A DNA stretch of 64,000 bases from the NCBI GenBank assembly GCA_012719645.1, contig JAAXZX010000116.1, forward strand, positions 1 through 64,000, in the 5' to 3' direction. This stretch comes from Clostridiaceae bacterium. Its GTDB lineage: Bacteria > Bacillota > Clostridia > DSM-8532. Below the pieces are notes generated by a model. That model was given only the letters and a program-made list of their open reading frames with translations, did not search any database and was not told where the DNA came from. Below, piece after piece: positions 31,436 through 33,572 of this stretch (positions are counted from its first letter, which is position 1; every line of letters begins with the position of its first letter). The position numbers were made by a program, and so were the translations under genes.

Positions 31436-32116
31436 TTGAACCAGATATTGGAAAGACTCACTGATGTGATTTTAATGATTCCCATACTTCTCATCGCGCT
31501 CCCTTTTCATGAGTATGCCCATGCCTTTGTGGCATACAAAATGGGAGACCCTACTGCGAAGGACGCCGGACGCCTGACCCTGAACCCGCTCAAGCATCTG
31601 GATATTCTGGGAACACTGATGATGCTTGTGGCAAGGGTGGGATGGGCCAAACCCGTACCTGTCAACTCAGGGTATTTCAAAGACAGGCGGAAAGGCATGA
31701 TCCTCGTTGCCCTGGCAGGGCCCATATCCAACCTGCTGCTGGCTTTTGTTTTCATGTTTATTTGGGGTGCCATGATAAAGCTGGTGGTGGTTGAAATCAT
31801 CCCTGTCAGGAGCGAAACGATGGTTACTGTTATATCCTGGCTCCAGGTATTCTTCCAGGTGTCAGTCCTGGTCAATATCAGCCTTGCGGTTTTCAACATG
31901 ATCCCTGTTCCGCCCCTGGACGGCTCACGGCTCATATCCTCGTTTATTCCCGAGGAAAGTTATTACCGGTTTGCCCGGTATGAGCAGTTTATAGGCCTGG
32001 GTTTCTTGGCGCTGGTCATCTTTGCGCCCAACGCGCTGAGTTCTGTTATCCATTTTGTGGCCGATCCCATTTACAACAGCATGGTTACCGCAATATCCTT
32101 TATTTTTGGGTTATAA
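31436..32116 (+). CDS. M50 site-2 protease family protein
   Basis: 226-residue polytopic membrane metalloprotease of the short M50 (YwhC/YdjP-like) group. HEYAH in the first membrane segment region supplies two zinc ligands, and FNMIPVPPLDGSRL (about residue 155) supplies the conserved Asp of the NPDG-like motif. No PDZ domain is present. The substrate is unknown, and it is not SpoIVFB judged by length and lack of a CBS domain. The start is a TTG at 31436 with GAGGTG about 13 bases upstream; no in-frame ATG lies near the conserved N-terminus. Confidence 0.88.
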   Translation: MNQILERLTDVILMIPILLIALPFHEYAHAFVAYKMGDPTAKDAGRLTLNPLKHLDILGTLMMLVARVGWAKPVPVNSGYFKDRRKGMILVALAGPISNLLLAFVFMFIWGAMIKLVVVEIIPVRSETMVTVISWLQVFFQVSVLVNISLAVFNMIPVPPLDGSRLISSFIPEESYYRFARYEQFIGLGFLALVIFAPNALSSVIHFVADPIYNSMVTAISFIFGL

Positions 32117-32158
32117 CCCTGCTACATCGCGAACGCGGCAATCGCATAAATAGAAGTC

Positions 32159-32240
32159 AGAAGTTAGATGTTAGAGGTTAGATATTATTAGCCCGGCTTC
32201 GCAGGCATTCTTGCATTCCAACCCCCAACATCTAACTTCT
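32159..32240 (+). repeat. 7-nt tandem repeat block and 14-bp inverted repeat
   Basis: AGAAGTTAGATGTT (32159-32172) is perfectly inverted at 32227-32240, with 54 bases between. The left arm lies in three tandem copies of NGTTAGA (32163-32183). The loop contains GCCCGGCTTCGCAGGCATTC. RNA from either strand could fold into a long hairpin. No T-run follows the right arm. Origin unknown; similar TTAGA-type repeats are seen in intergenic DNA of other bacteria. Confidence 0.6.
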
Positions 32241-32270
32241 TGCCTCCAGAACCATTGATGTCTTTTATGG

Positions 32271-32386
32271 TACGTAGTTGCGTTATAAAGACGTGCTGTT
32301 CAGCCTCGACTGACTCCGCATGAGCATGTACAACTTCCTGCGACGAGGACTGAAGGAGAGCCTGAACAGCACGGCTGCAACACGTA
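32271..32386. other. Unexplained structured element upstream of trpS (possible small RNA or mobile remnant)
   Basis: Complementary arms pair as TACGT/ACGTA, GTTGC/GCAAC and a perfect 12-bp CGTGCTGTTCAG / CTGAACAGCACG (32292-32303 with 32362-32373), i.e. 22 bp in total with a bulged A and one asymmetric internal loop. The apical part has CCTCG/CGAGG (32304-32308, 32344-32348), and CTCC at 32314-32317 could pair with GGAG at 32355-32358. It lies upstream of the trpS promoter, so it is not a trpS leader. I do not recognise the family. A 53-codon open frame (ATG 32320 to TAA 32481) overlaps it but has no ribosome site. Confidence 0.5.
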
Positions 32387-32399
32387 ATAACTGGAGAAG

Positions 32400-32418
32400 C
32401 GCAGCAGAGATTGCTGCG
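32400..32418. other. Second hairpin beside the structured element
   Basis: CGCAGCA-GAGAT-TGCTGCG forms a 7-bp GC-rich stem with a 5-base loop, 13 bases after the larger element. No T-run follows. It may belong to the same RNA or element. Confidence 0.45.
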
Positions 32419-32459
32419 TTCCGCTTAGACGGGGCTTGCAATTACACCCTTCCAAACTG

Positions 32460-32489
32460 TTGGCTTTTGGGGCATTTTTAATATATAAT
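32460..32489 (+). promoter_or_regulatory. Candidate sigma-A promoter for trpS
   Basis: TTGGCT (32460-32465), 18 bp, perfect TATAAT (32484-32489). A start near 32496 gives an 80-base leader containing CCTGCC/GGCAGG complementarity but none of the conserved T-box sequence. Confidence 0.55.
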
Positions 32490-32576
32490 ATTATGAAAAC
32501 TTCCTGCCTCGGTGGAACAGCGCATGGCAGGCAGGTATAAACTGAAGAATGAGATTTGAAAGGTCTGGTGCAATCC

Positions 32577-33572
32577 ATGCAGAAAAAAGGCATTATACTC
32601 AGCGGAATGAGGCCGACGGGCGCAATGCATCTTGGCAACTATTTCGGAGCCCTTGAAAACTGGATCAGGCTCCAGGATGAATACCAGTGCTATTTCTTCG
32701 TGGCTGACTGGCATGCGTTGACCACAGGCTACGAAGATACATCTGACTATAAAGACAATATCAGCAATCTGCTGATTGACTGGCTAAGCGCCGGCCTTGA
32801 TCCGGAAAAGAGCGTGCTGTTCATCCAGTCCTCCATAAAGGAGCACGCGGAACTCCACCTGCTGCTGTCGATGAACCTGCCGCTGTCCTGGCTTTACCGC
32901 TGCCCAACATATAAAGACCAGCTAAATCAGCTCAAGGAGAAGAATATTACCACCTATGGCTTCCTGGGATATCCCTGCCTGATGGCCTCGGACATCCTGG
33001 CCTACAAGGCTGATTTCGTGCCCGTGGGCGAGGACCAGCTTCCCCACCTGGAGATTACCCGGGAGATTGCCAGGAGGTTCAACTTCCTTTACAACTGCCA
33101 GGTGTTCCCGGAACCCCAGCCGCTGCTTACAGAAGCCAAGGTGCTGCCTGGCCTGGACGGTCGTAAGATGAGCAAGAGCTACAACAACACCATAGCCATG
33201 TCGGACAGTCCTGATGTGGTGCAGAAAAAGGTCATGTCCATGATTACCGATCCTGCCAGGATACACAAGACCGACCCGGGCCATCCCGAGATCTGCGCGG
33301 TATTTGCCTACCACAAGCTCTTTACCGCGGAAGAGGCGCCGGAGATCGAATCATGCTGCAGAAAGGGCGAAATCGGATGTGTGGCGTGCAAGAAGAAACT
33401 TGCGCAGAATGTGGCGAAATTCATGGACCCCATCTGGGAAAGAAGGCAGGAATGGCTTAAGAAGCCTGATGATATCAGGGATATCATAAAAGAGGGCAAC
33501 GCCAGGGCCCGTGAAAAGGCGTCCGAAACCCTGTCCGATGTCAGGGAAGCCATGAAGATCGACTGGATATAA
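32577..33572 (+). CDS. trpS: TrpS, tryptophanyl-tRNA synthetase
   Basis: Class Ic aminoacyl-tRNA synthetase that charges tRNA-Trp. The 331 residues show the HIGH-equivalent MHLGNYFGAL (about residue 17), the tryptophan pocket FFVADWHAL, GYPCLMASDILAYKADFVPVGEDQ and the KMSKS loop (GRKMSKSYNN, about residue 200). The ATG at 32577 gives the standard N-terminus QKKGIILSGMRPTGAMHLG. A TTG at 32556 would add seven residues with no better site. It has its own promoter and starts the trpS-scpA-scpB-ytfI-ytfJ group. Confidence 0.97.
   Translation: MQKKGIILSGMRPTGAMHLGNYFGALENWIRLQDEYQCYFFVADWHALTTGYEDTSDYKDNISNLLIDWLSAGLDPEKSVLFIQSSIKEHAELHLLLSMNLPLSWLYRCPTYKDQLNQLKEKNITTYGFLGYPCLMASDILAYKADFVPVGEDQLPHLEITREIARRFNFLYNCQVFPEPQPLLTEAKVLPGLDGRKMSKSYNNTIAMSDSPDVVQKKVMSMITDPARIHKTDPGHPEICAVFAYHKLFTAEEAPEIESCCRKGEIGCVACKKKLAQNVAKFMDPIWERRQEWLKKPDDIRDIIKEGNARAREKASETLSDVREAMKIDWI

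Follow-up and report, generated by a model that had tools for sequence, protein, structure and literature searches.

A structured element upstream of trpS in a Clostridiaceae bacterium is probably a shortened copy of a dispersed, MITE-like palindromic repeat

Introduction

Prokaryotic MITEs are short, non-coding, intergenic elements that occur in multiple copies, possess terminal inverted repeats and give rise to transcripts that are predicted to fold stably (PMC10969869). Small folded repeats are also known from Streptococcus pneumoniae, where BOX, RUP and SPRITE are modular, are nested in one another, are over-represented downstream of genes and are probably parasitic (PMC3049150).

The present analysis concerns an intergenic region upstream of trpS in a Clostridiaceae bacterium, which is contained in a DNA stretch of 64,000 nucleotides (contig JAAXZX010000116.1, called the window below). 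A sequence-only reading had proposed an unrecognised structured element in this region. The comparison with further copies indicated that the feature probably belongs to a dispersed palindromic element, non-autonomous and MITE-like, of which it is a shortened and decaying copy.

Results

The copy in the window

The element is situated between a gene for an M50-family peptidase, which ends at 32116, and trpS. Its main features are listed in Table 1. The two arms of a perfect 12-bp stem are enclosed in a 30-nt inverted repeat (32278-32307 and 32358-32387) that is 77% complementary, and a second hairpin of 7 bp is formed by CGCAGCA (32400-32406) and TGCTGCG (32412-32418). RNA folding of 32265-32425 yielded -61.3 kcal/mol, compared with -45.2 +/- 3.7 kcal/mol for dinucleotide shuffles (z -4.4), and none of 200 shuffles was as good. 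The arms, the hairpin and the fold thus confirmed that a structured element is present. The extent that had been proposed, 32271-32418, stood with respect to the fold, but the limits had to be revised to the longer unit in Table 1, as judged from other copies. The ends of this unit are approximate because the flanking terminal-repeat portion of the family, to which the 7-bp hairpin belongs according to the comparison with other copies, is decayed. The view that the element matches no known RNA family was likewise upheld, as Rfam gave no match at the element in the window at gathering or permissive thresholds. When ten full-length loci were compared with Rfam at E values up to 5, no family was found at the element. 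An FMN riboswitch was detected at 1694-1821 of locus L055 (125.8 bits), on the opposite strand and about 150 bp away from an element copy of genome G026. A search of the open literature yielded no description of the repeat family. To our knowledge, such families from uncultured Clostridia are seldom described in print, and therefore this literature result is only weak evidence of novelty.

Table 1. Features of the element copy in the window and of the adjacent promoter-like site
Feature	Position	Strand	Basis
Whole short-form copy of the dispersed element	32255..32450	+	Alignment to other copies; sister species without core at the locus
5' arm of the perfect 12-bp stem (CGTGCTGTTCAG)	32292..32303	+	Same stem in full-length copies
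3' arm of the perfect 12-bp stem (CTGAACAGCACG)	32362..32373	+	
Deletion junction, CTCCGCA joined to TGAGCATG	32314..32328	+	Split matches to contigs C15 and C40; junction also elsewhere
Retained 3' part of the core, TACAACTTCCTGCGACGAGGACTGAAGGAGA	32329..32359	+	Conserved across two genera
7-bp hairpin, outer terminal-repeat module (GCAGAGATTGCCGCG...)	32400..32418	+	Comparison with copies
Probable trpS promoter, outside the element	32460..32489	+	Conserved in sister species

Copies in the same genome and the internal deletion

The genome of the window, 2.6 Mb in 142 contigs, was searched with the region 32150-32600. Many further places matched, the best ones with 82-93% identity, and seven core copies as well as a dozen or so partial or variant copies were found. 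The sequence-only reading had held that many genomic copies with transposon-like ends would argue against its proposal, and this is largely what the genome search and the copy comparison revealed. The comparison included full-length forms (L015, L016, L017, L019 and L024), copies with an interior replaced by a GAAGTTAGAGG-type palindrome (L010, L011, L012 and L014), a truncated form (L013) and the short form of the window. Many core copies are embedded in a palindromic repeat of the TGTCATTGCGAG type, which has 33 exact sites in the whole genome, versus none for a reversed control.

Further variation was observed in apparently orthologous gaps. In one of them (L009/L136) the window's genome has a full-length copy and the sister species G003 a short form, and the two are oriented oppositely with respect to the adjacent gene. 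In another (L014/L056) the outer arms are the same, and between them G003 has the core and the window's genome a GAAGTTAGAGG-type palindrome. A second dispersed inverted repeat, AGAAGTTAGATGTTAGAGGTTAGA / TCCAACCCCCAACATCTAACTTCT (88% complementary), is located directly upstream of the window's element at 32155-32240; related copies are present elsewhere in the genome, and the same type of palindrome replaces the interior of several element copies.

The short form in the window lacks about 118-119 bp of the full-length copies, as computed from the split matches. A GCA triplet is present at each end of the lost piece of about 119 bp, and the two sides are joined at this GCA microrepeat, so that slippage across the hairpin is a plausible origin of the short forms. 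The identical junction was found at three loci, i.e., in the window, on contig C137 of the same genome and on contig C17 of G003. The covariance model described below matched the remnant at 32314-32353 weakly (17.1 bits, E 0.017), and most of the covarying helices fall within the missing piece. The window copy is an internally deleted, decaying relict of a dispersed repeat without the conserved junction.

The folded core and its covariation

The full-length core of 160-205 nt has a GC content of about 0.55 and consists of a long irregular stem that leads to a three-way junction with two hairpins, the loops of which usually carry GGA. In the second genus of the family the junction stem is CTC-GA-ACGAGG / CCTCGT-GA-GAG, with the GA steps opposed. 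Compensatory changes in relatives had been named as a check, and they were present. RNAalifold predicted 61 pairs from a structure-independent MAFFT alignment of 21 copies, and changes on both sides occurred in 26 of them. In this alignment 96.5% of the cells pair, and the covariation score was 0.293, compared with 0.129 +/- 0.007 after shuffling (none of 500 shuffles as good) and with at most 0.057 in a control with slid partners. A model-fitted alignment of 48 copies, which is biased towards the model by construction, gave both-side changes in 38 of 52 pairs and a score of 0.394 versus 0.148 +/- 0.006. Because related copies share changes, there are fewer independent events than the cell counts suggest. 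Clear events are nevertheless the different stems of the same hairpin in the two genera, AACAAC/GTTGTT in one and TCTGC/GCAGA in the other. The unpaired segments of the junction are also conserved in sequence across genera.

The folding strand was examined by comparing G-U with A-C cells, and a first count pointed to the + strand (68 versus 18). When both strands were folded, 42 versus 24 cells and 21 versus 17 pairs were obtained. With this control the difference was mostly gone, and therefore the strand count was not used.

An open frame of 53 codons overlaps the structure (32320-32481), and a decayed or leaderless small protein gene had been considered. The frame indeed exists, and some copies of genome G023 likewise have an open frame running through the core. 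However, no frame is open across all 48 copies, the core lengths modulo 3 fall into all three classes, the 53-codon frame has no Pfam match, and the substitutions preserve base pairs instead. The chance that such a gene explains the element is therefore close to negligible.

Distribution among relatives

The core was found in one further species of the genus (86-91% identity) and, with roughly 70-77% identity, in a second genus of the family. Of the 32 genomes of the family searched with a covariance model, 8 contained it, with up to 22 copies per genome. The distribution was patchy: several genomes gave 7-22 matches, and three of the four sister species gave none. The mean identity of the aligned core was 0.91 within the window's genome, 0.92 between this genome and G003, 0.93 within G023 and 0.84 within G026, versus about 0.6 between G026 and the others, and thus the copies group by lineage. 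A search of 84,980 genome assemblies with the core pattern yielded 46 stretches, all of them within seven metagenome-assembled genomes named Clostridiaceae bacterium or Bacillota bacterium, among which the window's own genome may be missing. At the sensitivity of this pattern, no core match was found in plasmid and phage collections. In viral contigs a single match to the pattern was obtained by chance in unrelated sequence, which the covariance model does not match.

One weak match of the covariance model in another Clostridia family led to a multi-copy family (f64) in several of its genera. The f64 copies score 27-68 bits with a broadened model, the training set of which included this one weak match. 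They covary among themselves, with a score of 0.286 versus 0.103 in a model-fitted alignment. With the broadened model, copies were also found in a third family (f26), where genome G313 contains about 17 of them. Judged by model scores and shared architecture, f64 and f26 are likely relatives of the window's family, with weaker support than for the copies within that family.

In nearly all copies of the three families, GGA is present in both inner hairpin loops. Because of these loops, it was considered whether the family might act as a mobile RNA by titrating CsrA or another host protein. Of the 22 genomes examined, 14 yielded a csrA gene, but it was not found in the carriers G405 (94% complete), G025, G030, G406 and G410, some of which are incomplete, whereas it is present in the element-free genomes G002, G004, G012 and G016. 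In addition, hairpin 1 of L054 no longer has its GGA. A titrating role would thus appear improbable. The window's genome has two csrA genes at near-equal offsets on consecutive contigs (C98:1276-1428 and C99:1275-1427), which are possibly strain variants that were kept apart in the assembly.

Terminal repeats

The core, like the elements of about 322-346 bp in G313, is below the MITE size of about 500 bp, and it is non-coding and multi-copy. Terminal inverted repeats are clear in G313, in which TTAACCTGTAGTGC ends occur at about 110 sites, compared with 11 for the reversed pattern, and nine of the fetched copies have 322-346 bp between ends of this type. The G313 ends run into TTAA-rich palindromic sequence, and a target-site duplication is indistinguishable from the repeat. 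No inward pair with the spacing of a parental insertion sequence was found among the TTAACCTGTAGTGC sites listed for G313. Many inward pairs of TTAACCTGTAGTGC-type ends in this genome are 65-350 bp apart and mostly lack the core; they form a larger palindromic repeat family.

In the window's genome, G023, G026 and f64 the terminal inverted repeats are recognisable, but decayed or variable. They are apparently unrelated by lineage: the TGTCATTGCGAG type is found in the window's genome, GGCTGTCTCAAAA in some G023 copies, GTGCAAGTGGCACAGTC or GTGCAAAGGCTCTGCC in G026 and TTAACCTGTAGTGC in G313. In f64 the arms even differ between copies, yet they pair within each copy. This could be explained if the pairing were kept by arm-to-arm gene conversion or by template switching in palindromic DNA, and not by selection on a folded molecule. 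Nested palindromes, which are common (e.g., the copies L010-L014 with a GAAGTTAGAGG palindrome as interior), would also fit such a process. However, it would erase internal loops and mismatches, and yet the unpaired junction segments are conserved across genera and both inner hairpins retain stems and loops of their own. As a full explanation conversion is thus unlikely. It could help to keep the outer arms paired, but it leaves the conservation of the unpaired segments unexplained.

Placement and the trpS locus

The placement of the copies was analysed with simple ORF calls, and f64 copies were included. Genes were called on both flanks of 58 copies, of which 22 are located in convergent gaps, 34 in tandem gaps and only 2 in divergent gaps. 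The tandem-gap copies showed no orientation preference (14 sense, 20 antisense). A similar placement, away from divergent gaps and with no orientation preference, is reported for pneumococcal repeats (PMC3049150). Such a placement would be expected of tolerated insertions more than of a cis-acting RNA.

The only promoter-like site upstream of trpS, TTGGCT-18-TATAAT, is located downstream of the structure. It is conserved in the sister species and the element is not, which agrees with the claim that the element lies upstream of, and outside, the trpS transcript. In the four sister species (G001-G004) the flanking genes and the promoter are present, but the core is absent and other short repeats are found instead. 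At this one locus there is thus presence/absence variation at an orthologous site. The sister loci are heavily rearranged, and neither a clean empty site nor a target-site duplication could be discerned. The element is not specific to trpS, since copies are dispersed in the genome and the core is missing at the trpS locus of the sisters.

A functional structured RNA, i.e., a cis-regulator or an sRNA of trpS or its neighbourhood, would be in accordance with the stable fold in the gap and with the covariation in relatives. It is nevertheless very improbable: the core is absent from the orthologous locus of four sister species, copies are found beside many unrelated genes in both orientations, the window copy has no conserved junction, and it is located upstream of the trpS promoter. 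As a relict without the conserved junction, this copy is not expected to have a function at trpS; in its place upstream of the promoter it is probably carried along neutrally. In genome G026 (L134, C2:31200-32200), the same gap before trpS contains a truncated repeat of the G026 version (TGTGCAAACAGCTCTG...GGCAGAGCCTTTGCACG). This suggests that the repeat pieces before trpS in G026 and in the window's genome are independent insertions at one place.

Discussion

The interpretation as a MITE-like palindromic element is based on the multiplicity of the copies, their patchiness, the terminal repeats, the absence from the orthologous site, the covariation and the internal deletion. The element would spread with the aid of a transposase supplied in trans, and a protein may recognise the folded core, either as single-stranded DNA or as RNA. 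Some observations do not fit easily. No transposase with matching ends was found among the sites listed for G313, and neither a target-site duplication nor a clean empty site could be made out. The ends vary with the lineage, and within f64 even from copy to copy, which is unusual for one transposase, and the conservation of the core is far above what the interior of a MITE needs.

Many bacterial MITEs are regarded as hardly more than insertion-sequence ends. Here the interior is the best-conserved part: the core is kept by compensatory change across genera, and the ends differ by lineage. This suggests that something recognises the core itself, and it makes the idea of a mobile element based on structure testable in this family. 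It is tempting to speculate further that the uncatalogued folded domain, a three-way junction with two GGA-loop hairpins, could be a mobile functional module of Clostridia for which unrelated palindromic repeats have served as carriers in at least three bacterial families, and that a protein partner of its own might mediate its action in transposition or host regulation; this extended view is possible, but rather doubtful. The interest lies in the repeat family rather than in the copy near trpS. More generally, a lone intergenic hairpin in a bacterium can be what is left of such a repeat, and searching the same genome is a quick way to decide this.

Of the known systems, MITEs share with the element that they are short, non-coding, multi-copy and intergenic and have terminal inverted repeats. 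In contrast to MITEs, its interior is conserved across genera with covarying helices, its ends differ by lineage, and it is not particularly AT-rich. BOX, RUP and SPRITE, compared at the level of architecture and placement only, are likewise modular, folded and nested, but they occur in other organisms and do not have the three-way junction with two GGA loops. REP and palindromic-unit repeats are also palindromic, intergenic, high-copy and near gene ends; however, the element is far longer and branched. HEARO and other transposon-associated Rfam RNAs are structured and carried by mobile elements as well, whereas the full-length copies have no Rfam match and the element is too short for a nuclease gene. 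With CsrA-titrating sRNAs, nearly all copies share the GGA in the hairpin loops.
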